From positions 219,391 to 283,390 of the forward strand of contig CAUJNA010003779.1 in the NCBI GenBank assembly GCA_963377175.1: a stretch of DNA of 64,000 nucleotides, in the 5' to 3' direction. This stretch comes from Effrenium voratum (Eukaryota > Sar > Dinophyceae > Suessiales > Symbiodiniaceae). Shown one piece after another: positions 26,321-49,529 of this stretch. Both the position numbers and the translations under genes were made by a program. The notes below the pieces were generated by a model. The model was not told the DNA's origin, ran no database searches, and worked only from the letters and a program-made list of their open reading frames with translations. Positions within the stretch are counted from its first letter, which is position 1. Each line of letters opens with the position of its first letter.

Positions 26321-26451
26321 GAGTAGGTGTTACACGAATTCGTAACGCTGGCGTGTTGTACTTTCGCAACGGCCCCCTTGAGTCGCTATGGACCAGGATT
26401 TTCGGGCAAAATCGATGGAGTCATCTCGTCGTAGCATGGTCGTGTGATGCT

Positions 26452-26521: not shown

Positions 26522-26539
26522 TATCCTTCACTACGGGTC

Positions 26540-26880: not shown

Positions 26881-26886
26881 ACGCTT

Positions 26887-31555: not shown

Positions 31556-31947
31556 GTTTCAGTCTCAATGTACCTTTGGGAGAGCGGACAATTTTGGCCT
31601 GAGAGGAACAAGGCTTCACCTTTGATTGTGCGAAAGTGCTCACGGAGGCCACAAGCTTGGACATCATGGTCGTTGGCGGCCTGGCGGGCCGCCCTCCTTG
31701 CCTTATTAGCCATGCTCACAACTGCATTGGCATCATCACGCGACAGCCAAGAGTATATCAAGCTGGGTAACATCGGGGCACTGTGTCCAGTACACAAAGA
31801 CATGTGCGTTCGTCGCGAGCCATTTGGGCCACCCACGTTGGTATCCGGGTGCGACTGCGATAGCATGCCAAAGTTCCTGCAGGTGAAGCCATCGTCTGCG
31901 GCTGTCATATTGATGCCAACCATGCGAGTCAAAGGCACGCCTCATGG

Positions 31948-33282: not shown

Positions 33283-33851
33283 CCACCCATCTCTTCATCG
33301 TCATCCTCAACGTCACGAACACGCTTGGAAGGCGGACGAGCCCCAGATGCCGACAACTCCATAAGGAGAGATTTCAGCTCATCAAATCCGTCCTTCATTC
33401 TGCGCTCCTGCTGGGCGACACACTTGCGTAAGCTCTCGTCAAACGAGGTGTCGAGCTTCTTGACCTGCTGATGCACTTGATTGACATCTTTCTGAACCGC
33501 ATCCTGGCGCTTTTCCATGCTGGACATGGCCGTCTTGAGTTCGGCAAGCTGCTTCTCTTGTTGATGGAAGGTGGCGGGGTCGCCTTGAGGGTGTCTGCCA
33601 CGGGACTGCAAAGCCTTCTCCCAAGGGTCGGAGGCAACTAGCGGATCCTGAGGGCCATCAGCAATGGTCGGCTTCTGCGTGGTTACACTCAGCACAGGCG
33701 GCTGACCGGCCACAGGATTAGTCGTGCGACTACCAGTAAATCTACGTTGCACAGGTTTGGCCAAAACCGTGTGGTGATTCATCTGCATAAACTCCGCAGG
33801 CGGTTCCGTCAAGGCGGCAACTAACCACACGTCGCTGGCAATACTTCGCAC
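33279..33851 (-). CDS. LINE 1 ORF1-like protein, coiled-coil part
   Basis: The frame includes ASDPWEKALQSRGRHPQGDP, a Pro/Gln-rich segment, then a strong coiled coil (EKQLAELKTAMSSMEKRQDA, VQKDVNQVHQQVKKLDTSFD, QQERRMKDGFDELKSLLMEL), a basic patch PPSKRVRD and an acidic end. The same arrangement (DPW box, coil, Pro-Ser-Lys-Lys basic patch, acidic end) occurs in LINE 2 at 48.5-48.96 kb, supporting a trimerising ORF1-like function. Confidence 0.6.
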   Translation of the reverse strand: MRSIASDVWLVAALTEPPAEFMQMNHHTVLAKPVQRRFTGSRTTNPVAGQPPVLSVTTQKPTIADGPQDPLVASDPWEKALQSRGRHPQGDPATFHQQEKQLAELKTAMSSMEKRQDAVQKDVNQVHQQVKKLDTSFDESLRKCVAQQERRMKDGFDELKSLLMELSASGARPPSKRVRDVEDDDEEMGG

Positions 33852-34720
33852 AACAGTGGTGTTGTGCCACTTGATATCCTGCAGCCATCGACGTAAATCA
33901 CTGGCATCGATTCGGGTTGCAGCCGATACAAGAGGCGACCAAGCTTGAGTTCAGGTTCGGTCTCATTGGGGTATAGCCGAGTCCATACAGCTGGATAGTC
34001 GGCCTCAGAGAGACGTGCACCATAGCCTTTACGCGATCTCGTGAGTCCTTGGTGCTCAGGAATTTTCTTGATGAGCAACAGTGCAGACGCTCGTGCCTCT
34101 GCAAGGGGCAGGATCGCATAGGGTTCCTTGGCGACCTCATTCGGGGTGATGGGCTGCACAAAGACATGGTTCAACCCAGATTGAGACAGAATCTCTTGAC
34201 CAAGCGCAGTTTTCACCGGCGCTGCAAGCACCTGCGTCCATAGATCTGACGAGCAGTCGTCACGGAAGACATTGAACACACATGGGCGCGTGTCAGCAAC
34301 AGCAACTTTGCCGACGGCATCATGTCCGAAACGTATGGCCCTCTTCCCAAGTTGATGGGCACAAACACTCAGGACAACGGGCTGAGCGGCGTCATGTGCC
34401 GGGATACGCATGGTGGTACAGGCATCTTGAAGAGCACACTTGCAATGAGCACCAAGAACCATCAAGGCAAGAGGATGATCAAATGTCTGTGGCTCTTGAA
34501 GCCAGGGTGCAGCGGCCTCAGCATCCAAGAGGACTACGGCAGGCCCACAGTGCTCGGCCATATCATGAATAATTGTGGCAGCAATGCCTTCCTGTGTCTT
34601 TGCAAATCCGGGCACAAGGGTGAAGTGTGTCGCCTGATGTGGCACCGTCAAGCGTTTCACACTCTTGGAGCCGGATGACTTTTGCACAGCGAGCTGCATG
34701 CTCGGGAGTTTAGTTCTCAT
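33821..34720 (-). CDS. LINE 1 ORF1-like protein, N-terminal half
   Basis: The frame begins MRTKLPSMQLAVQKSSGSK and runs 299 codons. Readable segments include HFTLVPGFAKTQEGIAATII, PYAILPLAEARASALLLIKK and YGARLSEADYPAVWTRLYPN. No zinc knuckle or RRM is evident. In this LINE type the region precedes the endonuclease and probably gives an RNA-binding or assembly protein. It ends in a shifted frame; the natural continuation is the coiled-coil segment at 33279-33851. Confidence 0.6.
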   Translation of the reverse strand: MRTKLPSMQLAVQKSSGSKSVKRLTVPHQATHFTLVPGFAKTQEGIAATIIHDMAEHCGPAVVLLDAEAAAPWLQEPQTFDHPLALMVLGAHCKCALQDACTTMRIPAHDAAQPVVLSVCAHQLGKRAIRFGHDAVGKVAVADTRPCVFNVFRDDCSSDLWTQVLAAPVKTALGQEILSQSGLNHVFVQPITPNEVAKEPYAILPLAEARASALLLIKKIPEHQGLTRSRKGYGARLSEADYPAVWTRLYPNETEPELKLGRLLYRLQPESMPVIYVDGCRISSGTTPLLCEVLPATCG

Positions 34721-34749
34721 CGACTGTCTCGAAGACCGGGCAACACATC

Positions 34750-35080
34750 TTGAACAATGTGATTCGCCTTACCGCCGGTAGACAGATCATGCCGAGAACT
34801 GCTTTCAAGAGCCAGCCGAATGGAAGACCTTGCAGTGTTCATGTCATCTTTCCTTTGCATGGAGGTGGTGGTAACTCCGAGCCGGTAGGTGATTTGGTCT
34901 CCTTGCTCACGCGTACCATGTGCTTGCAGGGAGCCGAGCAAGAATCGCAAGCATTTGCTCAGAAGATTGTTGCCCAGCTTGGGGCTGCACGCATCCGCCG
35001 GGTGTGCGCAGAAACACGGCCAGAACACATTGGGAAGGGCCTGAGAGGTTTGGCGTCAGCGGCGAGTGTCACGTGCCGCC
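34750..35080 (+). CDS. Unrecognised ORF between LINE 1 and the helicase
   Basis: The plus frame from MNNVIRLTAGRQIMPRTA includes VHVIFPLHGGGGNSEPVG, then CLQGAEQESQAFAQKIVAQL and GAARIRRVCAETRPEHIGKG. It has good protein character and a helical Gln/Ala segment. It might be part of another LINE ORF1 or an exon. No domain assigned. Confidence 0.35.
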
Positions 35081-35089
35081 GCCGCCCCT

Positions 35090-35620
35090 CAACGATAATG
35101 CCTTCTTCACCGGTCTGTCCTCCTCCGTTCGGGCGTCTGGCAGGCCCGCAGATGGCGGACCTGACGGCGACGAGACACGGCACAAAATCCTCTTTTGCGA
35201 CGGCATGCTCTACAATTTCAAGGAGCGTGTCCTCCGATCACGATCCCCGCCGACCGCATGGGCTTCCACGCAAAGGCGACCAAGCTCTTCGAGCAATCCT
35301 GGCTTTCTTGAAGGAGCATGTGGAGACGGGAGTCTGCGCGACGCCGCGGTTCTGCGATGTACTGCATCTGGGGAAGCCAGGATTCCGGAAAGGACACCAA
35401 GGTGAAGATGTTGCACGCCTTCCTCAAGGACAACTACGGGGCGCAGCTTCCGGGAAACTATGTGGTGCAACAGACTCGCTGCCTGACCGCGAAGGACGGA
35501 CCCGCGCCTTACCATGCAAGGACTCGACAAGCGGTACATCTTCTTCCTCAAATCTCGTGGACCACATGCTAGGGTCCCCGAAAACACGTCAGCGCTGGTC
35601 CAAAGTGCCGTAATCATCAG
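35090..35620 (+). pseudogene. D5-like SF3 helicase, broken
   Basis: The plus strand carries, over three frames, features of the poxvirus-D5 type primase-helicase used by giant viruses and Polinton-like viruses: KILFCDGMLYNFKERVL (D5_N-like), MYCIWGSQDSGKDTKVKMLH (P-loop; the residue after GK is D, not S/T), FLKDNYGAQLPGNYVVQQ, and then a GPAPYHA segment. SF3 helicases unwind viral DNA during replication. Frameshifts and the altered P-loop show it is inactive. It lies just upstream of the other virus-derived genes. Confidence 0.6.
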
Positions 35621-35639
35621 GGACTTGGAGCCAGAAAGT

Positions 35640-36060
35640 CGTCCAGCTGCCTGACAGCACAGCTGCCGGCCTGCCCCTCGTGGCCCGCCGCGTCGCCGCT
35701 TGGAAAGCGCTGCTTGATGCGGCGGTTCGTCAAGTCCTTGTTGTGCTGGAACCGTGGCGTTGTCTTAGAACTCTGTGCCGCTACTGCTTCTCCACGTCTT
35801 CCGGGGCCTTGTGGGCCGCACGTTGTGGGCCAAAGCGGTCTGCTCAAAGCCTTTGAGGTTCCACGGAGCCTCCCGGGCAAAGCGTCCATCCACCAGACCG
35901 TCTTCCCGCGTGTCTGGCTGAAGTTGGATGGTCGTTCGGCCTCGGGGCCAACTTGCGCCGGCCATCGTCGGGCGCCTCGAAGGTACCTTAAGGTCGCGCT
36001 GCCTCGCAAGTTGTTACTGCTTCTGTGGGTCCCCAGTTGAAGTCGGGCCAGTCCCTCAGC
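35640..36060 (-). other. Unassigned virus-region sequence
   Basis: Minus frames include RTTIQLQPDTREDGLVDGRF and APWNLKGFEQTALAHNVRPT, then RFQHNKDLTNRRIKQRF. The sequence is protein-like but too broken to place. It lies directly downstream of tail-fibre copy B and could be another decayed viral gene. Confidence 0.3.
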
Positions 36061-36905
36061 GCCTCCATGTTTACTTGTTCTGCCCCCGCTGGCCTGCCAG
36101 GCTTCCAACTCGTCCAGGGGCTTGGAAGCCCACCCCCCAGACACGCTGAAGGTCAAGCGTGATCGTCGCTCACCGGTGCCGTCAGGTTCTTGCGAAGTCG
36201 TTCGAGGCGTAGCCAGCCTCAGTTCATATCCGGGCGTTTTACTTGAAGCTTGTGTCCACGTTGGTGTTGCCTGCGAGCACCAGGCAGCCGGGGTTCCTCT
36301 GGAGTGCGTCGAGAGGCTCTTCGTCTGACCAGCGCCTCTTGTTGATATGATGAGCTTACTGGTGCGCCCCGCCGTCTCGCTCCAGGAAGACCCGCGCCTC
36401 TGGTCCCAGCTCCGGGCCGCTGGAGGCCACACTGTGTGGTGGCTGCGAAGCTCGCCGCGGTTGCTGCGCCCGAGGCCGTCAACGTGCCCGTGGATGCACA
36501 GCAGCTGGTCGCAGCCCACGTTGCCCTGCGCGGTGTGCCCGTCCAGCGTGGCCGAGCCCTGAGGGCCAGCGAGAGATCGTCCGAGAAGTTGCGGTGTTGG
36601 TCACGATGAGTGTGTTGGACGCGAAGAGCTGCGGCGCGGGACCGTGTCCAAGCGTCGTCGCCGCAGACCACGCTGCCCGTCGACACTCGCCGCTTATGCT
36701 GTGAAGGCGCAGTCCAGGCTCTCGCAGTCCAGCGGGCTCGCGGAGCCCGTGCCCGTGACCGCCCCGGTGGCTGCGAAGCTCGCTGCGGTTGCTGCGCCTG
36801 AGGCCGTCAGCGTGCCCGTGGACACGTCGCCCACCGTGGTGAAGTTCCCAGCGTTGGCCGTGTTGTTGATGGTGAGAGTGCTGCCAGTGCTTCCGGTGGC
36901 CGAGC
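36060..36905 (-). pseudogene. Tail-fibre copy B, distal part with degraded S74 end
   Basis: Minus-strand pieces follow copy C: SGTVSAPQ-like, LFASNTLIVTNTATSR, LVRRRASRR in place of the QTKSLSTL segment, and a terminal LDELEAWQAS matching LEEVEAWQAQ of copy C. The S74 chaperone core is hardly readable, with several deletions. This copy is more decayed than copy C. It is separated from its upstream part by the SINE at 36926-37080. Confidence 0.6.
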
Positions 36906-36925
36906 TCAGCCCACGCTGGCCGCCC
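36906..36925. repeat. Left target-site duplication of the SINE
   Basis: TCAGCCCACGCTGGCCGCCC, identical to 37081-37100. The uninterrupted sequence (CCCACGCTGGCCGC followed by TGATGCTCAGCG) is present in tail-fibre copy C at about 45.85 kb, confirming an insertion. Confidence 0.9.
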
Positions 36926-37080
36926 AGACGACGCCGTGGTGAGATGGTAAAGACGTTGGTCCGGAAACGTCAGACAGTCGCCGGGTTCGATTCCACCCTG
37001 GTACACGGATAAGTCTCAAGTTAGCCGACCGATGCCACTAGGCTCAAGGCGGCAGGGTGAAAAAAAAATAAAATAATCAA
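36926..37080 (+). mobile_element. tRNA-derived SINE with 20-bp target duplication
   Basis: A 155-bp insertion with a degenerate A box (TGGTGAGATGG), a perfect B box (GGTTCGATTCC), a 6-bp anticodon-like stem (GACGTT/AACGTC), an unrelated body, and an A-rich tail (GAAAAAAAAATAAAATAATC). A perfect 20-bp direct repeat borders it. This is the classic SINE structure: polymerase III promoter, A-rich 3-prime end, LINE-machinery-type target duplication. It lies in tail-fibre copy B, so it post-dates the viral gene. Confidence 0.85.
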
Positions 37081-37100
37081 TCAGCCCACGCTGGCCGCCC
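37081..37100. repeat. Right target-site duplication of the SINE
   Basis: Identical to 36906-36925; after it the tail-fibre sequence resumes. Confidence 0.9.
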
Positions 37101-38299
37101 CCTGATGCTCAGCGTGCTGCCCGACACGGCGCTGGTGGACGTCAGCGTGGCTCCGGCGACGGTGCGGTGGCTGCGAGCTGCGCCCAAACGTCCACGCCCG
37201 TTGTGACACGTCCGTGCAGTTCACGTCGTTGCACAGCAGCTGGTCGCAGCCCACGTTGCCCGCGCAGTGAGTCCGTCCAGAGTGTCGCAAAGCTGGCACT
37301 TCGGTTCGGCGGCTCGATCTCCGGGCTGGTGCAGCAGTCGGCGGGCACGCTGGACCTATACAGCATGCAGATCTTCGAGAAAGACTCGGTCTCCGACGGA
37401 CTGCTGCGGCACCGAGAAGTCCAGGCGCGCCGTGCTCCAGACTCCCTGCGAGGGCGTGCCGAGGAAGGTGCCGGTGACGCCCGTAGTCGTTTCGGCCGCG
37501 CTGACGACATCACCAGGTTGGAGGCCGTGCCTGGTACCGGCAGCCGAAAGAGTAGCGTCTTCCCGGCGTCAGTGTAGGTGCGCACAATGTTCCAGGCGAA
37601 GGCGCTCAGGGTCATGGCGTAGCCCTCCACCTGGAAGCGTGAAGCTGGCCACGGAGCTCTGGCTGGAGCGCACCAAAAAATTCCTAATGTGGTGAGCGTG
37701 GGCTCCAGCAGCACCTCTCCCAGGGTGGCCAGTGACGCCGCCCTCCTCCGTGTTGCCGACCTCCAGGGTTGCGTCCAGAGGCCGTAGACGTCCGCCGTTC
37801 CTGCCGTCTGGTTGGGCAGGAGGCACGGTGAGTACATCTTGGCCGTGCTCCAGGCGCCCTGGTCACCCACGAAGCTGCCGTACAAGGGGTCGTAGACGTT
37901 GTCGGCCTCGGACATGTGCACCACGAAGTTGGAGGCCGTGCCGAGCCGGTACCGGCAGGCGAAGAGGAGCTCTCGGCCGGGCGTCTGCAGCACGGCGATG
38001 CTGCTTCCGTGCGCGGCCACCTGTCCGTCCGTGGTGGCCAGGGCCGCCAGGGGCGCAATTGCCGGCGCCAGCACGCTGCTGTCCAGCTTTGAGGCCAGCT
38101 CTGCGGTGACCCGGTCGTCCAGGGACTGGATGGCAGCCGCGTTGTTGCCGGAGGCTGCCGTGTTCACCGCCAGGTCCGTTACTTGAGCGTAGGCCGTCAG
38201 AGCCAGGGCCAGCTGCCCTGCGGTGACGTGCGTGCCGTCAGTCGCCTCTCCGTTGCCCAGGACCTCCGGGATGTTGCCCGTGACAGGTCCTTCAAACAT
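37101..38299 (-). pseudogene. Tail-fibre copy B, N-terminal and middle part
   Basis: The minus frame begins MFEGPVTGNIPEVLGNGEAT at 38299 and runs through the Ala-rich coiled coil (NNAAAIQSLDDRVTAELASK), then ELLFACRYRLGTASNFVVHM, DPLYGSFVGDQGAWSTAKMY, LLPNQTAGTADVYGLW and AMTLSAFAWNIVRT. The YRLGTASN block recurs, suggesting an internally repeated fibre shaft. Single-base shifts occur from about 37850 onward. Tail fibres of viruses bind the host surface; here the gene is a relic. Confidence 0.7.
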
Positions 38300-38600
38300 G
38301 TTTACATATGTTTTCGCCGAAATGATTTGACCGATGGCGCCGGTCAAATCGTGACACAGCCCATGGGTGACCTGAAAGCGAGCCCGCACCAGGCCCGCAC
38401 CAGGCCCGCACCAGGCCCGCACCAGGGTTTCTCGGAAGTAGCGTCTCAAATGATTTGACCGGTGGCGCCAGTCAATCGCAAGACCTCACCGGTCAAATAA
38501 AAAGCGTGCTACAGTCGTCGTCCCACGCGACAACTGGAAAACATTTTTCCCTACAGTCGTCCCCCCACGGGACAACTGGATTTTTTTTCCTGGACCTCGG
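38300..38600. promoter_or_regulatory. Hairpin-rich region upstream of tail-fibre copy B
   Basis: Next to the start codon are CATATG-rich sequence and hairpins with arms TTTGACCG/CGGTCAAA (38326-38348) and TTTGACCGG (38454-38475), loops around ATGGCG. A CCCGCACCAGG 11-mer repeats about four times at 38385-38427. Two hairpins of the CAGTCGTCC/GGACAACTG type lie at about 38512-38580. Probably viral promoter or intergenic DNA. Confidence 0.55.
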
Positions 38601-39110
38601 GTGGCGCAAGCGCGGCCGGGTTGAGGCTTCTATGCCGGGCAGGAATGTGATGCTCGAAAGCACAAGTGGCACTTGTGCTTTCGAAGCGGCCGGGTGGGAG
38701 GCTCCGATGCCGGGCAGGTGGCGCGGCCGGGTGGCGCGCTAGGTGTGGAGCCAAAAAATGTCGAGGTTGTCCCCCCACAGGACAACTTCGACATTTTTTT
38801 TTCCTGGGAAGAATTCCGACCTTGGCGCGGGCTCGGCAGGGCTCCGATGCCGGGCAGGTGGCGCGGCCGGGTGGCGCAGCGCCAATCCGTTTGGCCTCGG
38901 AACTGGAAACAGGCACGGACCATTTTTTGGTTGATGCCCGCGTAGAGTTCAGCTTAAGAGTCGTTGGGCGAACCCGTCGGCGGGCTGGCGTGGCTCCGAT
39001 GCCAGGCAGGCGGCGCGGCCGGGTGGAGGCTTCTATGCCAGGCAGGTGGTGCGGCGGTGCGTTCATCCTGCTGGCCTCCGGTGGTCTCTGCCGCGGCGGG
39101 CGGGCTGGCG
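38600..39110. repeat. GC-rich repeat module, forward copies
   Basis: Four or five imperfect copies of a module around GATGCCGGGCAGGTGGCGCG followed by GCCGGGTGG, at about 38625, 38705, 38845, 38995 and 39028. Reverse-orientation copies lie at 42915-42990 and 43815-43970. Also here: the palindrome at 38655-38683 and a hairpin with arms GTTGTCC/GGACAAC (38762-38790). Confidence 0.7.
38655..38683. repeat. Perfect 14-bp inverted repeat with 1-base centre
   Basis: Arms CGAAAGCACAAGTG and CACTTGTGCTTTCG are separated by a single G, a near-perfect palindrome within the GC-rich module region. Confidence 0.9.
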
Positions 39111-39230
39111 CCTGTGGGTTTTAAACACAGCTGCCTCTACTCTCATCTTGAAAATTCGACTCCTGTCGGCGTGTCCGTTTGCGTCGCCGCTTGCCGGGGG
39201 CGTGTGAGAAAACACCAAGAGTGTTCAGCG

Positions 39231-39430
39231 ATGACGCGTGTGCGCCGGCCTGAGAAGAAGTGTCCGCACGGGCGGCGGCGGCACCGGTGCCTCGACTGCG
39301 GCGGCGCGTCGGTCTGCGTGCGCGGGCGACAGCGGCACCGGTGCTGCGACTGCGGCGGCGCGTCGGTCTGCGGGGCGGAGGCGAGCTGAGTGCTGCGACT
39401 GCGGCAGGCTTAGGTGCGCAACTCCAGCAT
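39231..39430 (+). pseudogene. CHG-repeat zinc-binding segment
   Basis: The frame MTRVRRPEKKCPHGRRRHRC, then LDCGGASVCVRGRQRHRCCD and CGGASVCG has two to three copies of a C-x-H/R-G-R-x4-C-x2-C-G-G repeat. This repeat is common in algal and large-virus proteins and probably binds zinc. The same repeat, better preserved, begins the nuclease gene at 44.9 kb. Here it lies directly upstream of the integrase and loses frame at about 39389. Confidence 0.6.
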
Positions 39431-39439
39431 CTCCAGAGA

Positions 39440-40190
39440 GGAAGTGAAGGCGTTTCTGGACGGCCTCCGGGTAAACCAGTAAACCAGGACCGAGCGCAGA
39501 GAGGCTACAGACACGAAGGCCTTTGGGGGCAAGCCCTACCCCTTCATGCTGGTGGCCATCGATGCGCTGACCAAAAAAGTGGCCGCGGAGTCGCTGAAGG
39601 ACCGTCTTGCAACCACCACCGCGGCGGGCATGAAGAGGTGTTTCGGGGCGCCGGCCAACGTGTACTCCGACGACGGCTCCAAGTTCAAGAGGGAGTTCAA
39701 GGAGCTGCTTGCTTTCTGGGACATCGAGAAGCAGGTGACCAGGGGCCACGCCTACTTTGCAGAGCGCGGGGCCAGTGGCACCTTATGCTGCCTAACGTCT
39801 TGAACCAAATCAAGTGGCGCCGAACCTCGCCTACTCTGACCCCGAAATGGCTGAGATTGCTCTACACAACATCGAGCGCAGGGCCAAACACAAGGTGACC
39901 CGCCCGAAAATCAAGGTTGGGGATATGGTTAGGATCAGGGTTAAGCCGATCGAAAGCAGGGGCTCCTACAGGGTCAACGAGATAGCCTGGAGCGAAAAGG
40001 TATACAGGGTAGCCTCCGCCGAGAGCGGGGAGATGGGGGCGAGGTTTGGCTTGGAGGGGTGGCCGGAAAAGGTGGTGCCCAGAGATCTCCGAAAAGTCCG
40101 CGAAAACTCAGCTCCCAAGCCGCGGGGGCTGGAGGTGCAGTCCTGCCAGCGGAGGCTACAGAGAGCCCCCAGGCTTCCACCTCCCTTTTG
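39440..40190 (+). pseudogene. Retroviral-type integrase (Polinton-like), broken
   Basis: The core reads GGKPYPFMLVAIDALTKK (first Asp), APANVYSDDGSKFKREF (second Asp) and TRGHAYFAERGAS (Glu region). The frame shifts, then continues EIALHNIERRAKHKVTRPKI and KVGDMVRIRVKPIES, ending EGWPEKVVPRDLRKV, an SH3-like C-terminal domain of Polinton and retroviral integrases. Such integrases insert viral DNA with terminal repeats. At least two frameshifts (near 39775 and 39800) inactivate it. It is followed by the non-coding block at 40250-41345. Confidence 0.75.
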
Positions 40191-40249
40191 AGACTCTGTT
40201 CTCTGTGCCTCTACGTCTCTACTCTGCATCTCCAACAGCTCCGACTGAG

Positions 40250-41345
40250 TAGTAAGGAAAGGGGGCTTATAGTCTCCGAATTATTTTGGTTTTTTGGCCC
40301 AAAAACCCTGCAAAACTGCATAATTTTCAACCAGCTGAACTTGTCACCAGCGATGTCACCGCTTCGTCACCGCTCCGTTTTTGGTGCAAAAAGCGCTAAA
40401 AACGGCAAACTCCGAAAAGTTTGTTTTTTCGTGTAGACGTCAAACGTGGCGCCTAAGCCTCCAAATTCGCGCGTTTTCGGTCGAAATCGCCCTCCAAACG
40501 TTGCTGATTCCGTTTTCTGCCCGGAAAAGCACAAATTCCATCCCGCCAAGCTTGTCACCGTTCGCCACCGCTTTGTCACCGCTCGCTTTTGGGTCGAAAA
40601 AGTGCGCAAAAGCGGCCCAGTTCCCGAGTTTTGGAGTCGCAGGGTTTTCCGCGGCACGACAGCCAGCCGAGGACCTGGCTCGGAGCGCGGCAGCCCGCCG
40701 AGGCTTTGGCTTGTACGTCAGCCCGCCGAACTTGTCACCGCCTTTGTCACCGCTCCGTCTGGCTCCGTTTTTGGTGCAAAAAGCGCTCAAAGCGGCCAAC
40801 TCCGAAAAGTTTGTTTTTTTGTGTCAGACGGCAAGTGGGATGCCTGAGCCTCAAGTTTTGCTTGTTTTCGGTCGAAAGCAGGCTCCAGACGCTGACTTTG
40901 CTCAGGATTCCCGGAAAACAGGCAAATTCCATCCCGCCGAGCTTGTCACCGCTTGTCACCGCTTTGTCACCGCTCTCTTTTGGGCCGAAAAGTGCGCAAA
41001 AGCGGCCAAGTTCCCGAGAGGACTTCGTTCTTGGCAAGTTTGAGTCAATAATGGAACGGGCTGATTCATTAATGGGCAAGGTTGGTTCATTAATGCCCGG
41101 CCGCAGGTGGTGCAGAGACAGCTGAGACAAGGTAGCGCTTGAGCCCCCAGAGGTGCCCCATTGACCTAAAAAAACTATGCACACAACGCATAGTTACATC
41201 GGTCAATTCTTCATGTGCTACGTCGGTCAATTCATCATGTGCTGCAGGCCGAGGTGTCCCAAGTGTTTTGACCGACGCCATCGGTCAATTCACAGCGAGC
41301 GGTATCATAAGTGAAGGATATTTTCCCTCACTTCATGTACTGGTA
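40250..41345 (-). other. Conserved non-coding block N, copy 1
   Basis: About 1.1 kb, largely the reverse complement of 46505-47710. It contains two long tandem units (about 40337-40730 and 40735-41030) rich in the word GTCACCGCT and carrying GGTGCAAAAAGCGCT and GGTCGAAA. Next come palindromic TCGGTCAA motifs (41190-41288, including a hairpin at 41268-41288) and an AGTGA/TCACTT hairpin at about 41311-41333. The left border is AGTAGTAAGGAAA in both copies. No coding signal. It separates the integrase end from a tail-fibre fragment. Confidence 0.7.
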
Positions 41346-41504
41346 GCCTAGCACGGGAACCCGAAAATCCAGGCCCAAAGCAACTCAAGGGCTGTTGTGA
41401 GATGTTCTAGATTTATAACATCCAGCGCTACGAAGACCCCGAATGGCCCGTAGCAACTCAAGGGAGGCGTTGCGAAATTACAACACCCCATCGTTACAAG
41501 TCCG

Positions 41505-42040
41505 AGTCGCCGCTGAGCTGGCCTCAAAGCTGGACAGCAGCGCGCTGGCGCCGGCAATTGCGCCTCTGGCCACGGCAGCCGGCCCTGGCCACCACGGACG
41601 GACAGGTGGCCACGCACGGAAGCAGCATCGCAGCGCTGCAGAGCTTGCTGACCACGGACGGGTCTCTCCAACAAAGGGCGTGGTGGCCACGAAGAGCACC
41701 CCGACGGCGTGGATCTGAAGCTGTCCAACTACAGCACCACGGCGGCCATGAACGGCTCCAGCCAACAACGCCACGCTGGCCACGGTGGCGGCCAACTGCG
41801 GCCTCAAGACGGTGGTGCCGCTGAAGCACGAGTTCCTCGACGGAGGGGCCGACGACGTCACGCTGGCCACCCTGGGCGAGGTGCTGCTGGAGCCCACGCT
41901 CACCACGCTAGGCAATTTTCTGGTGCGCTCCAACAGCCAGAGCTCCGTGGCCTCGGCCAGCTTCACGGTGGGAGGCTTCCAGCTGGAGGGCTACGCCATG
42001 ACCCTGAGCGCCTTCGCCTGGAACATCGTGCGCACCTAGT
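41505..42040 (+). pseudogene. Tail-fibre copy D, fragment
   Basis: Pieces in shifting frames match copies A and B: AELASKLDSSALAPAIAPLA, GVVATKS, LKLSNYSTTAAMNGSS, then in a clean frame LKTVVPLKHEFLDGGADDVT, LATLGEVLLEPTLTTLGNFL and LEGYAMTLSAFAWNIVRT with a stop at 42039. The start is missing; the fragment follows block N, as the tail-fibre start does in copy C. Confidence 0.65.
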
Positions 42041-42284
42041 AGTTGGTGCTGAGGGGCGTGTGAAGGTCAGAATAAAGGGAACACATCCACGGACGCGAAG
42101 CTGGGTATAGCTGGCATAACCACTGAAGTAAGCCAATGACCGGATGAAGATCTTGCTTCAAGATGCGCTCACTAGACAGGAGACGCTGTATGCCCGAGCA
42201 AAGCTTCTGGCGCTTGCTAATAGGCACCGGCCAGCCAATCCAATCAATACTGTGCCCAATCTGAGCACTCCCTGGACATAGCGG

Positions 42285-42440
42285 CAAGAATCACGCCGCT
42301 GGAGGTCGACAGCAAGGTGGCCAACGCTCTCCTGGGCGTCTCACCGCCACAGCGCTGGCCTCCAAAGCTCGCAGTCAAGACGCCTCCATCTCGGGGCTGC
42401 AGGCCTCCACGGACGCCAGTGCCCTGACAGCGTACTAGGG
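42285..42440 (+). pseudogene. Tail-fibre neck fragment
   Basis: Frames give ITPLEVDSKVANALLG, ALASKARSQDASISGLQAST and DASALTAY, an Ala/Ser heptad coil like the tail-fibre neck but from a different sub-region or variant. Broken by a one-base shift. Confidence 0.45.
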
Positions 42441-42585
42441 GTCATTATTTTGCAGCCACACGTCTGCAGCGTTTTCTTCGAATCCTTCGCAGGACGAGGT
42501 CATTTCCTGGACGGACAAGTGCTAGGAGCCTCTCGGGTAGAATAGAATCCATTTGGAAAACCCCCTCAAAGAGAGAGCTTGCAAC
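42440..42585 (-). pseudogene. Conserved short ORF, inverted copy
   Basis: Reverse complement of 26745-26880 with substitutions. The minus frame starts MDSILPERLLALVRPGNDLV, then RRIRRKRC. In the other copy this ORF lies just after the integrase end. Unknown function. Confidence 0.45.
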
Positions 42586-42587
42586 AA

Positions 42588-42668
42588 TGATCCATGGTTG
42601 ACTCTTGTTGCCGCAACATTATTTCAAAATTGCTCCATGGTTGACTCTTGTTGCCGCAATATTGCAAC
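42588..42668. repeat. Tandem pair of a 28-bp repeat
   Basis: CCATGGTTGACTCTTGTTGC plus CGCAA occurs twice, about 48 bases apart. Small duplication with no gene. Confidence 0.75.
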
Positions 42669-42764
42669 AAAAGTGTACGCCAAGCGCTGACCCCACAGTC
42701 TCCGGGCTTCTTGCTATATGGGTCTCACAAGGCGCCACTGAACCTCCACTCTCCACCGGGTCCA

Positions 42765-42888
42765 CTCTCCCCCGGGTCCTTGCTATATGTACTATGTGTG
42801 CCTTATGGCCCTATATAGCACATAAAGTACAGATTTTCGCGCGTACAGAATAAGTAATACATATAGCAAGGATAGGGACCCGGGGGAC
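42765..42888. repeat. Inverted repeat, possible MITE
   Basis: The left side TCCCCCGGGTCCTTGCTATA and the right side in reverse (TATAGCAAGGAT...GGACCCGGGGGA) form arms of about 24-28 bp with a few extra bases on the right. The inside holds a second, smaller inverted repeat (ACTATGTGTGC/GCACATAaAGT). About 120 bp in all. Confidence 0.55.
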
Positions 42889-42911
42889 TGTGAGGGTTCG
42901 GCGGCTTGGTG

Positions 42912-42992
42912 CCTGCCGCGCCTGCCTGGCATAGAAGTGCCGCGCTACCTGCCCGGCATAGAAGCCTCCATCCGGCCGCGCCACTTGGCATA
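42912..42992. repeat. GC-rich repeat module, reverse copies
   Basis: Two to three reverse-orientation copies of the module seen at 38.6-39.1 kb (CCTGGCATAGAAG, CCTGCCCGGCATAGAAGCC, GGCCGCGCCAC). Confidence 0.7.
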
Positions 42993-43024
42993 GACGCCAC
43001 GCCAGCGTACGCGCCGCGCGCATT

Positions 43025-43190
43025 CTTGTTTCGCACGATTTTGCATGGTTTTTGACATGGTTTTTGCATGGGTTTTGCATGGTGCGGTTGCATGACATGA
43101 TTTTGACATGACATCTTGTTTTTGCATGACATGATTTTGAACATGACATTTTGACATGTTTGTTTTTTGCACGGTTTTGCGTATCATGTG
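43025..43190. repeat. TTTTGACATG / TTTTGCATG repeat tract
   Basis: Ten-base words GACATGATTTT and GCATGGTTTTT repeat irregularly. Minus frames are Lys/His/Met-rich low-complexity. Non-coding. Confidence 0.7.
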
Positions 43191-43290
43191 GTTCAAGCCC
43201 CAATGCCCCTCCCCCTCACCCCCCCCACCTTTTTTTCCTGTCAGGTGTACATCCTGGAGAACTTCGCGGCGCTGGGCGGGAGGCGGGGCG

Positions 43291-43575
43291 GTGCCGAGCG
43301 GGCACCTAGGTAGACGTGCCGAGCAGGCACTGTGCCGAGCGGGCACTAGTAGGTAGACGTGCCGAGCGGGCACAGTGCCGAGCAGGCACCGTACCCCGGT
43401 GCCGAGCGGGCACCGTGGGGGTGCCAGTGCCGAGCGGGCACTTGCAGTGCCGAGCGGGCACTTGTAGGCACTATGGCGCCGAGCGGGCGCCGTAAGAGTG
43501 CCAGTGCCGAGCGGGCGCCGTAGGACGTGCGGGCACCGTAGGACGTGCCGAGCGGACCCGGTGCCGAGCGGGCAC
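43291..43575. repeat. Array of about 12 identical mini-hairpins
   Basis: The 15-base unit GTGCCGAGCGGGCAC (5-bp stem GTGCC/GGCAC, loop GAGCG or GAGCA) occurs about 12 times at irregular spacing of roughly 5-25 bases. One unit near 43475 is GGCGCC-GAGCG-GGCGCC, a paired change that keeps the stem. Spacers differ in sequence. No adjacent gene explains it. Confidence 0.8.
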
Positions 43576-43664
43576 TGTAGGAGGCACAGCGCCAATCAGG
43601 CGCAGCTTGGAGCAGGCGTTGTGGGCCACTGTGAAAGTGGCGTGGAGGCCACTGTGAAAGTGGT

Positions 43665-43800
43665 TGAGTACTGGCTCGCCCAACGGCCCTTAGTACTGGC
43701 TCGCCCAACGGCCCCTTAGTACTGGCTTGCCCAACGGCCCCTTAGTACTGGCTCGCCCAACGACTCTGAGTACACTCTGAGTACTGGCTCGCATCGTTTG
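43665..43800. repeat. TACTGGCTCGCCCAACG tandem repeat
   Basis: Four to five copies of a roughly 26-base unit, TAGTACTGGCTCGCCCAACG plus GCCCCT, with one variant using ACTCTGAG. Non-coding. Confidence 0.8.
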
Positions 43801-43814
43801 ATGGCTCGCCCAAC

Positions 43815-43975
43815 GTGGCTTCGCGCCACCTGCCCGGCATAGAAGCCCTGCCGCGCCTGCCTGGCATAGAAGCCCCCGGCCGCGCCATCTGCCTGGCATT
43901 GAAGCCTCCGCTGCCGCGCCACCTGCCCGGCATCGGAGCCTCCAGCCGGAGGCTCCGATGCCGAGCCCCGCGCAA
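43815..43975. repeat. GC-rich repeat module, second reverse group
   Basis: Four copies of GCCACCTGCCCGGCATAGAA or close variants (TGCCTGGCATTGAAG, CCTGCCCGGCATCGGAG), the reverse of those at 38.6-39.1 kb. The end GGAGCCTCCAGCCGGAGGCTCC is a further palindrome. Confidence 0.75.
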
Positions 43976-44034
43976 CCCGAGGTCGGAAAGGATTGCCCCA
44001 CTCAATCCTATGCCCAACACAGGCTTGCCCCGCT

Positions 44035-44059
44035 CAATCCTGTGCCCAATACAGGATTG
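44035..44059. repeat. Hairpin next to the nuclease gene end
   Basis: Perfect 9-bp arms CAATCCTGT/ACAGGATTG with loop GCCCAAT, just downstream (minus sense) of the nuclease stop codon at 44078. A related half-copy precedes it. Could act as a terminator. Confidence 0.7.
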
Positions 44060-44077
44060 ACAGGATTGCCCGGTACT

Positions 44078-44936
44078 CTAGGCGAGCGCGCTGTTCTCCG
44101 CGTCCCGGTCGTAGAAGAGAAAGAGGCGGGTGAACGGCGCCTCCGGCTCGCGCGCCAGCAGCTCGCCCAGCAGGCGGATCAGCTGCGCGCGGCGCTCCTT
44201 CTTGGTGGTCCGCCGCGTCATGCCGGCAATCTTGAAGGCGTCCGGTTGTAGCGCAGCACCAGCAGCTTGTGGCCGCTGCCGAGCGCCACGCTGGCGGCCA
44301 TGTCGAAGTCCCTGCGCACGTCGCAGCTGGGGTCGTAGGCCTTATGCTGCTCCTCGTCAACCTCCAGCAGGACGTAGCCCCACGGAGTCGGCAGGGCAAA
44401 GTCCGCGAAGGCGTGGGCCGTCTCCGACTCCAACCCGCAGCCGCGGAAGGGCAGGTAGTGCTGGTACTCAAGGGTGATCTGCGCGTCGCGGAGCGCTTGG
44501 TGTACCTCAAGCTCCTTACTCTTGGTCACCGCGCGCGGGTTGTCGCCGTGCATCGTTCGCATGTGTCGCAGCAAACTCAGCGCTCCGGCGAAGGGGAGAT
44601 CTTGCCGAGGACAGCCCTCAATTTGACACACAAAACAGGTGCAGTCGCGGCACTCAGCCCGCCTCCGCCCGTGCACGCAGACCGACGTGCCGCCGCAGTC
44701 GCAGCACTCAGCTCGCCTCCGCCCGTGCACGCAGACCGCCGCGCCGCCGCAGTCGCAGCACTGGGCCCGCTGTCGCCCATGCTCGCAGACCGACGCGCCG
44801 CCGCACGAGCGGCACTGGTACCGCCGCCGCCCATGCTCGCAGACCGACGCGCCGCCGCAGCGTCTGCGCTATGCTGCCGAAGCCTGTGCGGATCCTTGTA
44901 GACGGCCTTGATGGTTTGTCTGCGGGCGTCAGCCAT
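44078..44936 (-). pseudogene. Zinc-repeat / PD-(D/E)XK endonuclease gene, frameshifted
   Basis: From MADARRQTIKAVYKDPHRLR the protein enters four to five zinc repeats (for example CVHGRRRAECCDCGG) and a C2H2-like finger (CQIEGCPRQ...LLRHMRTMH). A nuclease-like domain follows: AHAFADFALPTPWGYVLLEV then DEEQHKAYDPSCDVRRDFDM. D...E-V-D-E-x-Q-H plus a downstream D-x-R-R is the pattern of PD-(D/E)XK endonucleases in algal viruses and mobile elements. One frame break lies in the first zinc repeats and another near 44247 (after VLRYN); the third frame carries the likely C-terminus to 44078. It could nick DNA for homing or viral replication. Confidence 0.65.
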
Positions 44937-46428
44937 GTTTCTTATGGGTTCTTGCCGCTGGGCCTGCCAGGCTTCCACCTCCTCCAGCCGGCCCCCTTGC
45001 ATTCCCGCAGAGCACGCTGGTGAGGTGCGAGTAGTCGAGCGTGATCATCTTGGTGCCGTCGCTCCAGCTTGCGGCGCCCGTTAGGTTTTTCCACTTTGTT
45101 CCTGCTAAGTCGTTTAAGGCGAAGCCCAGCCTCAGGTCCTCGCTCATGTCCGGGCGTTTGTACTGCTTGGCCTCCACGGAGTCGAACAGCTGCAGCAGCT
45201 CTGCCACGTCGGCCTTGGCCATCTCCGTCTTCACCCGGCTGTCCGACAAATTTGTGAAGCTCGTGTTGCAGACCACGTTGCCCGTGTTGCCTGCGATCAC
45301 AAGGCAGCCGGGGTTCTTCTGGTTTGTGGTCAGCGTCGAGAGGCTCTTCGTCTGCACCAGCGCCTCGTCGTTGATCATGATGAGCTCACACTGGTGCGCC
45401 CCACCGTCCCGTTTTAGGAAGACCCTCGCGCTCTGGTTGCCCAGCAGCCGCAGCTCCGGGCCGCTGTCGGAGGCCGCGCTGTTGTTGGAGATCTGCAGCT
45501 TGCTCCAGAAGTCGGAGGTGTTGGTCACGATAAGCGTGTTGGACGCGAAGAGCTGCGGAGCGGAGACCGTGCCCGAGCTTGTCACGTCGCCACACACCAC
45601 GCTGCCCGTCAACACTCCGCCGCTCATGGCCGTGAAGGTGCAGTCCAGGCTCTCGCAGTCCAGCGGACCCGCGGAGGCCGCCCCGGTGATCGTCAGCGTG
45701 GCGCCCGTGACCGCTCCGGTGGCTGCGAGGCTCGCCGCGGTCGCTGCGCCCGAGGCCGTCAGCGTGCCCGCCCACCGTGGTGAAGTTCCCGGCGTTGGCC
45801 GTGTTGTTGATGGTAAGAGTGCTGCCCGTGATTCCGGTGGCCGAGCCCACGCTGGCCGCGCCGGTGATGCTCAGCGAGCTGCCCTGGACGACAGCGTGGC
45901 TCCGGCGACGGCGCCGGTGGCTGTGAGCGCTGCGCAGGAAATGGCGCCCGAGGCGTCCACGCCCGTCGTGAACACATCGGTGCAGTTCACGTCGCTGCTG
46001 TGCAAGCTGGTCGCAGCCCACGTTGCCCTGCGCGGTGAGCCCGTCCAGCGTCGCCAAGCCCGTGAGGGCCAGCGAGTCGGCCAGCAGGTCCGTCACGGAG
46101 ACCGACTCTCCCGCGAAGGCCGAGGCCCTGATCTGCATGCTGTACAGGTCCAGCGTGCCCGCTGACTGCTGCACCAGCCCGGGGATCGCTCCGAAGCGCA
46201 GCTTTGCGACTCTGCCCGGTGGCACCGAGGCGCCGTGCTCCAGACACCCTGCGCGGCCGTGACCCGTGGTCAGCGCTGCGATGCTGCTTCCGTGCGCGGC
46301 CACCTGTCCGTCCGTGGTGGCCAGGGCCGCCGCCGTGGCTAGAGGCGAAATTGCCGGCGCCAGCGCGCTGCTGTCCAGCTTTGAGGCCAGGACCTCCGGA
46401 TGTTGCCCGTGACAGGTCCTTCAAACAT
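44929..46428 (-). pseudogene. Tail-fibre copy C with peptidase-S74 chaperone end
   Basis: It starts MFEGPVTGNI at 46428, but the coiled coil is cut short. The shaft reads VQQSAGTLDLYSMQIRASAF, ESVSVTDLLADSLALTGLAT and STLTINNTANAGNFTTVGG-type repeats. The best-kept part is the last 230 codons (45627-44929): VVCGDVTSSGTVSAPQLFAS, ELRLLGNQSARVFLKRDGG, then NTSFTNLSDSRVKTEMAKAD, VAELLQLFDSVEAKQYKRPD and EDLRLGFALNDL. LSDSRVKTEM...RLGFALND is the intramolecular chaperone (peptidase S74) signature, which trimerises tail fibres and cleaves itself off. Frameshifts in the shaft and near the end show it is a relic. Confidence 0.75.
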
Positions 46429-46516
46429 GTTTTCTTAGGAGCGACCTAAGTCTGGTCGTGTGTTACGTACGTGTAACACGGGTTGTCATCTCGTTGTAGC
46501 ATGGCCATGCGATGCT

Positions 46517-46588
46517 TTGAGGGAAAATATCCCTCAATTCAACTTCCCGTGCTACCAGTACATGAAGTGAGGGAAAATATCCTTCACT
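46517..46588. promoter_or_regulatory. Tandem AAATA-loop hairpins
   Basis: Arms TTGAGGGA/TCCCTCAA (46517-46537) and AGTGAGGGA/TCCTTCACT (46566-46588). Identical pair at 26452-26521; the second also at about 41311-41333 reversed. Confidence 0.65.
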
Positions 46589-46623
46589 TATGCTACCGCT
46601 CGCTGTACCGTGGTTATGACGAA

Positions 46624-46714
46624 TTGACCGATGGCGTCGGTCAAAATGCTTGGGACACCTCGGCCTGTGGCACATGATGAACTGACCGATGTAGCACATG
46701 ATGAATTGACCGAT
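46624..46714. promoter_or_regulatory. Iteron-like TTGACCGATG motifs
   Basis: Three copies at 46624, 46682 (CTGACCGATG) and 46705. The first is followed by its inverse, giving 8-bp arms TTGACCGA/TCGGTCAA and loop TGGCG. ATGATGAAYTGACCGATG repeats with about 23-base period. Reverse copies at 41190-41288, and variants upstream of copy B at 38326 and 38454. Confidence 0.6.
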
Positions 46715-47728
46715 GTGGCTATGCATTGTGTGCGCAGTTTTTTTAGGACAAAGACCGAAAGCTTGTGTCAGGGCGACATGGACCGTGGTACGCCTTGGGG
46801 GCTCAAGCGCTTCCTTGTCTCAGTGGTTATGACCTGCGGCCGGGCATTAATGAACCAACCGAACCAACCTTGCCCATTAATGAATCAGCCCGTTCCATTA
46901 TTGACTCAAACTTGCCAAGAACAAAGTCCTCTCGGGAACTTGGCCGCTTTTGCGCACTTTTCGGCCCAAAAGAGAGCGGTGACAAAGCGGTGACAAGCGG
47001 TGACAAGCTCGGCGGGATGGAGTTCGCCTGTTTCCGGGCTGAAAGCGGAATCCTGAGCAGTCTGGAGCCTGCTTTCGACCGAAAACGAGCGAAACTTGAG
47101 GCTCAGGCGTCCCACTTGCCGTCCGACACGGCAAAACAAACTTTTCAGAGTTGGCCGTTTTGAGCGCTTTTTGCACCAAGCCAGACGGAGCGGTGGCAAA
47201 GGCGGTGACAAGTTCGGCGTCGCAAGCCGAAACCTCGGCGGGCTGCCGCGTTCCGAGCCCGGTCCTCGGCTGGCTGTCGTGCCGCGGAAAACCCTGCGAA
47301 GAACGAAGTCCTCCGGAACTCGGGAACTGGACCGCTTTTGCGCACTTTTTCGACCCAAAAGCGAGCGTTGACGAAGCGGTGACGAACGGTGACAAGCTCG
47401 GCGGGATGGAATTTGCCTGCTTTTCCGGGCAGAAAACGGAATCCCGAGCGTCTGGAGCCCGATTTCGACCGAAAACGAGCGAATTTGGAGGCTCAGGCGC
47501 CACATTTGACGTCTGACACGAAAAAACGAACTTTTCGGAGTTGGCCGTTTTGAGCGCTTTTTGCACCAAAAACGGAGCGGTGACAGAGACCGGTGACATC
47601 GGAAAAACGTTCAGCTGGATGGAGAATTCGGCTGTTTTGCAGGGTTTTTGGACCAAAAAACCAAAATTAATTGGTCCCAAAAAGCCTTATTTCCTTACTA
47701 CTCCCATCGTCCGCCGAACGGAAAAGGG

Positions 47729-48130
47729 ATGACAACGATCTACGTGGACAGCCGCAAGAGGGTGGCCGGCTCGGACAGCGACTTTGAGGTTGACCTGGCC
47801 GACAGCTTCCTGTCCACGGACCGGCGCCCGGCTGGCGCTGCTCCTGAACGACCTGGAGCTGCCGCCTCTCCGACCAAGCCCTTCAGCGTGGGCCACATGC
47901 TGGGCCCGAGCTTGGGCAGCAGGTCTTTGAGTTCGTCCGGATGATGGCGCACAACGAGGTCTACCTGCGTTGCGCCCAGCTGGCCAACGCCAGCCAAGTG
48001 CTGGGCAACCTGGGCGACGACATCCTCTCCAAGATCACGCTGAAGAGAAGAGCGGCGTGGGCACCATTGTGGAGACAGGGTCGGACGACGGGCGCTTCAT
48101 GGGGTTGAGAGGCCCCGTCACCCTGAGGCA
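47729..48130 (+). pseudogene. Penton-like minor capsid gene, 5-prime fragment
   Basis: The ATG at 47729 starts MTTIYVDSRKRVAGSDSDFE then VDLADSFLSTDRRPA. The I-Y-V-D-S-R-x-R-x-x-G-x-x-S-D-F opening is typical of penton-type minor capsid proteins of Polinton-like viruses. After frame breaks at about 47815-47890 the sequence continues FEFVRMMAHNEVYLRCAQLA, NASQVLGNLGDDILSKITL and TGSDDGRFMGLRGPVTLRQ, also capsid-like. It is then cut off by LINE 2. In a virus this would form the vertices of the particle. Assignment rests on motif style and neighbours. Confidence 0.5.
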
Positions 48131-48259
48131 GACCACTAGTGATAGGATTCAAAGCGAAGTTGAGGAACCTCATTTCCTTCGGCAAGGCAGCTCATCAATG
48201 GAGTGGGCAACTTGTTGAAAAAACGGGTGCTGACATCGTGCAGCAGACCTTGTCGGCCA

Positions 48260-48960
48260 TGCTAACTTGCTTCAAGCGTTGAACAAAATTGCTGTCGAGC
48301 GTGGATTGAACGAGATCCGACCTGCTGGTCCTAAGGGTGCTAAGACTGCTGAGTGGAAGCCCCATGCTTGTGATTTTCGTCTTTGTGGAGACTTCTTTCA
48401 TTCCCGATGGTACTGCTCCGCCTGTAGTCGATCGGTTGACCAGCACTGGTTGTGGAGTTGTTCTCATTGACGTTGCAGACGTGAGCCTGTCTTGCTGTAT
48501 GGAACTCGTAAGCCACGTAAACAACCGCCGACAGCAAAAGGGGGCACTTCCGCCTCAGATCCGTGGCTCATCAAAGACCCGTGGAGTAGTCATTCAGCAA
48601 CGACATCAGTTGCTGCAGGCGCCGGTTCTAGTGCGGCAGTCACGACCAAGCATTGAGGCAGCAGGAAGCTCGGGTGGTTTGGAGAAGCAGCTTCAGCTCA
48701 TTTGTGCATCCACAGAACAAAACACTGCCAGAACCGATGACATGGAGAAAAAACAAGCCTCATTCAGCCGCGACGTCAAGCAGGAGTTCGAAGAAGTTTC
48801 TGGGCAGTTGGTTGGATTCAAGGACACTCTTGAACAGTGTTGGCCGCTGCACTTGAGAGGCAAAGCAAAGAATTCCTTTGCGCGTTGAAGAAAAGCCCCC
48901 GTGGCGAAGCAGATCCGTCCAAGAAGCAAAGGATCAGTGATGAAGAGAGCATGTTGTGAC
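48260..48960 (+). CDS. LINE 2 ORF1-like region
   Basis: Broken over frames: LQALNKIAVERGLNEIRPAG and EWKPHACDFRLCGDFFHSRW (one frame), then ASDPWLIKDPWSSHSATTSV. A coiled coil follows in another frame (QNTARTDDMEKKQASFSRDV, KQEFEEVSGQLVGFKDTLEQ). The end LERQSKEFLCALKKSPRGEA, DPSKKQRISDEESML has the basic-then-acidic tail seen in LINE 1. Likely an RNA-binding, oligomerising ORF1-like product. Confidence 0.5.
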
Positions 48961-49529
48961 ATCATGGGAGCCCTCCCAATTCGGTGCATGTGTCCTGCAT
49001 AGTGATGGCTTCTGGCTGGAAGAAGCAGGACATTGAATTTGGTGCGATCGCTTTGTGCTTGTTGCTCGTTGGCTTGAGTGTGCAGCAGCTTCAGTGGCAC
49101 TTGGCATTTCACTGCCAGTTGCATGGTACGAGTGAAGATGGAGCTTGGATGCTCTCTGGGCTTCGTCGGAAAACTGTGGTTTCTCAGGGCTTTGTCCTGC
49201 AGAGCCCTTGGGGTGATTGCCCAACCCGCCTCAGGTTTGCGCCTCTCTTTCTTGGAGTGGGTTAGGATACAGCTGGGCCCAAATTGGCAGGCTGCCAATA
49301 CAATTGAGGTGCATGATATGGTGAAAAACTGGCCGCTTCTGATGATCGATGTTGAAGTGGGTGACAACCCGCGTGTGCTGACTTATGTTGTGGACAAGGG
49401 GGCTTTCCTGTGGAAGCTCCCGATTGATTTGATGTGTTCCGATCACTTGATGAGACATACCCTGACCCGTAATTTCTTTGCTGGAAACTCCAACTCCCCT
49501 GTTGCTTTCTTTGCGGATGGCAAAGGTCG

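Follow-up and report, generated by a model that had tools for sequence, protein, structure and literature searches.

The stretch of DNA analysed here comprises 64,000 nucleotides of the dinoflagellate Effrenium voratum (contig CAUJNA010003779.1, positions 219,391 to 283,390) and is referred to as the window, with positions counted from its first letter. Between 34.9 and 48.13 kb it contains pieces of Polinton-like virus (PLV) genes, all of them broken: an SF3-type (superfamily 3) helicase, an rve integrase, a zinc-repeat nuclease, a penton-like protein and three partial fibre genes. The initial annotation, made from the letters alone, had proposed a decayed PLV region in a dinoflagellate genome at this place.

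The block was examined in all six frames. Beyond the matches to Pfam and PHROGs, the pieces were identified through relatives from the same genome (1,155,904,702 bases in 3699 contigs; copy numbers in it are lower bounds) or from a protein database, while the remaining window pieces submitted to Pfam and PHROGs gave no meaningful match. As a control for chance, 100 dinucleotide shuffles of 34.7-48.2 kb were searched, which gave maxima of 27-32 bits. The best scores in the real sequence are 91 bits for the helicase, 325 for the fibre, 89 for the penton and 345 for the nuclease. The integrase query of this control carried an out-of-frame fibre stretch, and its 55 bits were not used.

Viral gene remnants in the window

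The helicase remnant lies at 35049..35524 on the plus strand and was found by tblastn with an open frame of 1281 residues (L051:2305-6147, 61-64% identity). It covers only residues 823-906 and 973-1046 of this relative, the 66 residues between them being absent. The SF3 motifs (Walker A, Walker B and motif C) were read by eye in the 1281-residue frame, for which neither Pfam nor the PDB sequences gave a match of note. A relative from E. voratum, 74% identical, bears the name 'SF3 helicase domain-containing protein'. The D5-like SF3 helicase proposed at first is probably of SF3 type. The 15 helicase relatives include 8 under the name Effrenium voratum (74-87% identity) and 4 under Symbiodinium (55-62%). 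The genome contains 68 matches from 78 candidates, a count that takes in the window and any second piece from one gene. The helicase and a fibre gene face each other in the window, as they do at three other genome loci.

The integrase core is located at 39483-39803 on the plus strand. It matches the rve family at 6.5e-6 (26.8 bits), below the Pfam cut-off of 32.6 bits, in agreement with the retroviral-type integrase that had been predicted. A tail labelled SH3-like in the initial annotation follows on the same strand at 39796-40191, in a frame different from that of the core. In 10 of 11 fetched fibre copies (L026-L036) an integrase core lies beside the fibre on the same strand, with a main segment 58-85% identical; none is present in L030. 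The tail follows the fibre in 9 of the 11 (75-94% identical). The integrase of L051 reaches 1.4e-7 and 32.1 bits, just below the same cut-off.

The zinc-repeat nuclease, probably of PD-(D/E)XK type, occupies 44084..44868 on the minus strand, where two frames are 82% and 89% identical to the relative P0121, as the initial annotation had led one to expect. One frameshift is present near 44.25 kb and the first zinc repeats have been lost. The start of a second such gene (39231..39371, plus strand) is 68% identical to residues 1-47 of P0121 and sits 5 kb from the main remnant on the opposite strand. The structural model of the nuclease (predicted local distance difference test, pLDDT, 68; predicted template modelling score, pTM, 0.49) has an alpha-beta-beta-beta-alpha-beta core, a topology that fits PD-(D/E)XK, and D156, E169 and D171 are invariant in 9 sequences. 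Foldseek matches of the model are weak: R2, McrC and TnsA are among them, the best E value is 0.025 and nothing falls under 0.001. There is also a weak match to a PHROG homing-endonuclease family (0.004). The nuclease may perhaps cleave target DNA. In the genome 155 matches were obtained from the best 150 scored of 1220 candidates, and a PLV gene lies within 1 kb of the nuclease in two of three fetched copies (L054 and L055), none being recognised in L053.

Penton-like pieces were also predicted, and four of them at 47723..48131 (plus strand) match a 250-residue frame at the locus L044 with 63-89% identity. The remnant has an internal deletion and frameshifts, and it ends at 48131 beside a retrotransposon of LINE (long interspersed nuclear element) type. 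The L044 frame is 24-25% identical to the corresponding frames of L016, which belongs to an AT-rich element of this genome (1.4e-12), and of the metagenomic contig L046 (8e-11). We take these frames to be pentons from the usual start of that family.

Fibre pieces occur in four places, in line with the initial annotation, which had counted at least four. Copy A (25786..27562, plus strand, by tblastn) lies outside the reported block and has a palindromic start (25803-26314, 79%). Copy B (36206..38485, minus strand) consists of several broken frames, found by tblastn with the relative P0003 and window pieces, and copy C (41491..42036, plus strand) of fragments. Copy D is the largest remnant (44932..46440, minus strand; repeat matches to 46441), with 68-75% identity to P0003 and matches to PHROG tail-fibre families on 44932-45870 of the minus strand (1.1e-4 and 1.6e-3). 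A 231-residue open reading frame (ORF) at 25.3-26.0 kb had been considered as a helicase and was rejected, its first third being the antisense of the fibre gene.

As for the proposed S74 terminus, the fibre identity stands, and the last part of P0003 can be aligned with the terminus of a fibre from a free PLV-like contig (34% over 71 amino acids, 1e-10), but neither the window fibre ORF nor P0003 matches S74 (PF13884) above the Pfam cut-off. An AT-rich fibre of the same genome does match S74 (2.6e-11). In the genome, 126 more matches to the window fibre were scored (82-93% identity, among 4837 first-look candidates); their frames measure 319-1381 residues, and 9 of the 126 are interrupted by stops within the match. 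In the protein database there are 263 relatives, the best 120 of which are listed; in viral contigs the fibre query gave 4 pattern matches and none was confirmed.

Purifying selection has acted on the fibre family, and divergence is greater for the copy in the window. The median ratio of non-synonymous to synonymous substitution rates (dN/dS) is 0.16 among ten open copies (45 pairs) and 0.21 between the window and those ten, both values being biased downwards by the choice of best matches with open frames and by the prior omission of L027 and L033, which carry stops. The median dS is 0.20 between the window and the ten open copies and 0.10 among the ten (45 pairs).

GC-rich and AT-rich relatives in the same genome

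The same genes occur together elsewhere in the genome, in GC-rich surroundings. Contig C435 carries a fibre and an integrase, followed by two tandem ATPase-penton pairs, broken pieces of a major capsid protein (MCP) and a second fibre. The tandem pairs are located at 4491-6296 and 7770-9447 of the fetched locus (L044), and the first ATPase frame diverges at its end. The PLV genes of C435 have mostly 58-69% GC per kb, with dips to 48-53%. Contig C3467 (59-70% GC) has an open MCP of 440 residues, then a fibre (in two frames) and an integrase on the same strand, facing an open helicase of 1281 residues; an ATPase lies at 261.7 kb and a nuclease at 268.8 kb. The GC-rich ATPase matches a PHROG terminase family (5.4e-16) and is 40-46% identical to the ATPases of AT-rich PLVs, one of which matches Pox_A32 (1.9e-15). 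The GC-rich MCP (L056:1642-2964, minus strand) is 27.6% identical to its AT-rich counterpart over 464 columns (1.4e-35, the search space being a single 3-kb piece).

The ATPase was scored at 141 places including the query's own (89-100% identity, of 5842 candidates). Eight other places, of which two contain a stop, are 99-100% identical to the C435 copy, and this argues for recent spread. Among the listed places, five ATPase-nuclease pairs lie within 2 kb and all five are divergent (uniform expectation 0.07), and all three helicase-fibre pairs within 5 kb face each other (0.065). Within 25 kb there are 18 ATPase-fibre pairs (expectation 0.77) and 11 fibre-nuclease pairs (0.81).

Four contigs fetched around S74 fibres carry elements of the opposite composition, mostly 20-40% GC per kb, each with MCP-like, fibre and ATPase frames. 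The element on C3594 has an S74 fibre, an MCP, an ATPase, an rve integrase and penton-like frames. It measures 23.2 kb end to end, with terminal inverted repeats of 859 bp (99.3% identity) at the change in GC content and a 5-bp duplication (GTATG) on both sides. The element on C3079 is similar (21.1 kb; terminal inverted repeats of 373 bp, 94.6%); its duplication reads ATGCT after a one-base shift of the edge, and a 7-base alternative is possible. No terminal repeat pair is present in the stretches of C1500 that were read, and C734 has only diverged inverted matches (66-78%). The intact copy that the initial annotation expected elsewhere was thus found in part: C3594 and C3079 have terminal repeats, MCP and ATPase, but terminal repeats were found for AT-rich elements only, and the expected protein-primed DNA polymerase (pPolB) remained without a family match.

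The model of the AT-rich MCP (pLDDT 58, pTM 0.64) matches the capsid chains of PBCV-1 (8.6e-14), Sputnik (1.4e-10) and mavirus (1.0e-7), and the protein is accordingly predicted to be a double-jelly-roll major capsid protein; its alignment gave no match among PDB sequences. Helicase-type Pfam matches occur in three of the four AT-rich contigs (C734 left out) and are weak in two. A large frame of an AT-rich PLV (L019 5231-9466, about 1411 to 1412 residues) matches SF1 (superfamily 1) helicase families in its C-terminal part (2.5e-7), while PolB families matched neither this frame nor a 1286-residue frame of L046. In the GC-rich lineage an SF3-type helicase is seen in place of a PolB. A fragment of a cytosine DNA methylase (L017 1175-1807, 1e-6) was seen at the right edge of an AT-rich PLV, and a stretch beside a GC-rich fibre of C435 (L045 7046-7444) is 43% identical to it.

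When the AT-rich proteins are compared with the window, the integrase alone matches (32%); the window pieces therefore belong to a separate, GC-rich lineage. This lineage, with open frames for MCP, helicase, ATPase, penton, fibre and nuclease, is the likely source of the pieces. The dinoflagellate nature of the host is borne out by 251 exact copies of the spliced-leader 21-mer in the genome, the reversed control giving none. Overall, the region at 34.9-48.13 kb is read as a dead, rearranged remnant of a GC-rich endogenous PLV lineage, with a probability of about 0.93. The pieces did not prove to match unrelated host or bacterial families, and elements with capsid genes and terminal repeats do exist in this genome, so that the proposal of a decayed PLV region withstood both of the outcomes named beforehand as refuting it. 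The window consists of several inverted and truncated pieces rather than one decayed copy, and LINE insertion may have caused some of the truncations. It is unable to perform a viral cycle because it has lost the capsid and packaging genes and what is left is cut by deletions, frameshifts and inversions. In a complete relative, the integrase would insert the linear DNA of the virus into that of the host, producing a short duplication of the target, and the SF3 protein would help to copy the viral DNA. The ATPase would pack DNA into capsids during particle formation, and the fibre would attach the particles to the next cell.

Several observations weigh against this reading. MCP and packaging ATPase are undetectable in 34.7-48.2 kb (21 bits against a shuffle maximum of 29, and 20 against 27, respectively). 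Terminal repeats with a target duplication were not demonstrated in the GC-rich lineage, and no GC-rich element was seen with every gene open, because the fibre of C3467 is in two frames. No nuclease-helicase pair occurs within 10 kb and only two occur within 25 kb (expectation 0.39), and all these expectations assume uniform placement, which is untrue of mobile elements. The selection of fibre copies for the dN/dS values belongs here as well.

Inverted repeats and competing readings

Within the block, fibre and nuclease pieces are enclosed by two inverted arms of 1.1 kb, the left at 40247..41347 (plus strand) and the right at 46551..47703 (minus strand). The arms are 83.5% identical and have sharp outer edges at 40247 and 47703. 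For the left arm, 61 genome matches were obtained from the best 40 scored of 1799 candidates, and 29 of these best 40 rows begin at arm base 1 or 2. Seven arm copies were read (both window arms, L038-L041 and L043), and all start with GAGTAG, one of them one base in. Outside the seven arms no similarity is aligned to the edge; two pairs (window left with L041, L039 with L041) share stretches at other distances. The 3' flank of the window integrase is homologous to seven other copies up to 40232-40247, where the homology ends. The sharp aligned start, the differing flanks and this stop indicate that the arm is the end of a high-copy element.

These observations also raise the possibility that 40247-47703 is a separate mobile element of 7.5 kb, derived from a PLV, with 1.1-kb terminal inverted repeats and with fibre and nuclease pieces but no capsid, which was inserted into an older PLV remnant between the integrase and penton pieces. 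Besides the unaligned flanks, the common start of the genome rows and the end of the integrase homology, this is favoured by the PLV coding pieces in four of the seven outer flanks: integrase and nuclease (window left), penton (window right), MCP (L039) and an integrase tail (L041). The fibre lies inward of the arm in all seven copies, and on C1070 and C618 arms occur in close opposite pairs. On the other hand, no target duplication was found by eye at 40247/47703, which also counts against the PLV remnant as preferred here, and a fibre adjoining both arms would be unusual in a simple element. Another possibility is that the arms are PLV termini, as several rows match only to about base 844-915, near the length of the AT-rich 859-bp terminal repeat. 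Moreover, no arm precedes the fibre of C3467 or the second fibre of C435, both of which follow an MCP. The separate insertion is therefore considered a tentative alternative, with the odds somewhat against it. An earlier idea, that the arms separate divergently oriented penton and fibre genes as a spacer, was rejected: the penton query used began with some 43 residues translated from the arm, and with a coding-only query just one of the seven copies, the right arm of the window, has the penton in its outer flank.

A broader and doubtful proposal is that GC-rich PLVs spawned a swarm of capsid-less, fold-back-like derivatives, with fibre and nuclease genes between the 1.1-kb arms. These would be moved by the integrase of complete relatives, the divergent nuclease-ATPase pair being part of the autonomous helper. 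If true, the swarm would be a virus-derived counterpart of non-autonomous transposons.

Integration of a giant virus or virophage is very improbable as the origin of the pieces. Jelly-roll capsids, A32 ATPases and SF3 helicases are common to giant viruses and virophages, and the nuclease family is spread through metagenomes (338 relatives, the best 120 listed), but the gene set, the rve integrase, the sizes of the AT-rich elements (21.1 and 23.2 kb) and the 17.4-kb free contig with a similar gene set all fit a PLV. That the host or LINEs captured the pieces independently, without these ever having made up a single virus, as their scatter over both strands beside LINEs might suggest, is scarcely credible, since C435 and C3467 carry the same genes together, with order and orientation repeated.

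Surroundings and comparison with known systems

Two LINE-type elements flank the PLV remnant, their limits being taken from open frames. The first (27962..34768, minus strand) matches RVT_1 at 30318-31211 (1.9e-8) and Exo_endo_phos, below cut-off, at 31951-33294 (0.0022). The second (48310..54695, plus strand) matches RNase H at 52353-54692 (1.4e-5) and has no nucleotide match to the first by blastn. Further along, 55152-57831 and 59724-62402 form a direct duplication of about 2683 bp (98.2% identity) carrying an ORF of 395 residues; the ORF contains a P-loop-like stretch and has no Pfam match above cut-off. At 16.6-22.9 kb on the minus strand there is a Copia-like retroelement with several open frames (zinc knuckle 5.5e-5, a weak copia gag 0.054 and a reverse transcriptase recognised by eye). 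Simple repeats at 9549-11047 are open in several frames and lie within a 2-kb block of GC skew 0.32. The whole window has no Rfam family match, no transfer RNA and no spliced leader. Elsewhere, C722:109307-122977 holds a spliced-leader array with copies often about 136 bp apart, the listed ones all on one strand. The published assembly of E. voratum RCC1521 is given as 50.8% GC (PMC11114475).

Endogenous PLVs of dinoflagellates are already known: the account of Bellas et al. 2023 (PMC10120064) describes 'Dino group' MCPs and gives 2535 MCPs in Polarella glacialis. As in those PLVs, which have rve integrases or tyrosine recombinases, capsid genes are present here in very many copies. According to the same account, terminal repeats occur in about 47% of high-quality elements. 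Unlike the PLVs it describes, one of the two lineages coexisting in E. voratum exceeds its surroundings in GC content. In Oxyrrhis marina, OmPLV (PMC12721341) is likewise an endogenous dinoflagellate PLV with decayed and possibly functional copies and an A32 ATPase. As far as that source describes it, OmPLV differs in having about 25% GC, a tyrosine recombinase, a fusion of an SF1 helicase with pPolB and no rve integrase, whereas the GC-rich lineage has an rve integrase and an SF3-type helicase. The large L019 frame of the AT-rich lineage is possibly comparable to this fusion.

Earlier reports describe S74 fibres, TVpol-SF3 fusions and the coexistence of several PLV groups within a genome (PMC12220804, PMC4642659). 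The cryptophyte PLVs of the former report resemble the present ones in fibres ending in a chaperone domain, in SF3 helicase replicases (TVpol-SF3) and in different PLV groups per genome. They belong to another host group, and the zinc-repeat nuclease is not so named in the main text, where 'zinc' does not occur. PLV contigs have been described from Karenia lysates (PMC13037468) and Maverick enrichment at the edges of topologically associating domains from Breviolum (PMC11071213), while the main text of a review of dinoflagellate genomics contains neither 'polinton' nor 'maverick' (PMC11453091). The open-licence literature on viruses or PLVs in connection with E. voratum or Symbiodiniaceae yielded no description of PLVs of E. 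voratum.

In viral contigs the ATPase alignment recovered one relative among 113 pattern matches, the 17.4-kb metagenomic contig IMGVR_UViG_3300028392_002905 (L046), which is free while the GC-rich lineage is endogenous. Its ATPase is 39% identical to the query alignment, and it has a fibre of a tail-fibre family and a penton-like ORF (25%, 8e-11). MCP-like and integrase-like ORFs were recognised in it by eye, and no zinc-repeat nuclease was found.

Published work thus already covers PLV expansions in dinoflagellates as well as the S74 fibres and SF3 replicases of PLVs; the GC-rich lineage, the nuclease beside the ATPase and the high-copy arms are added here. A heavily invaded Symbiodiniaceae genome joins the dinoflagellates with PLV expansions, and in it two PLV lineages of opposite base composition coexist, apparently with different replication proteins. 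Screens that seek a drop in GC content would miss the GC-rich one.

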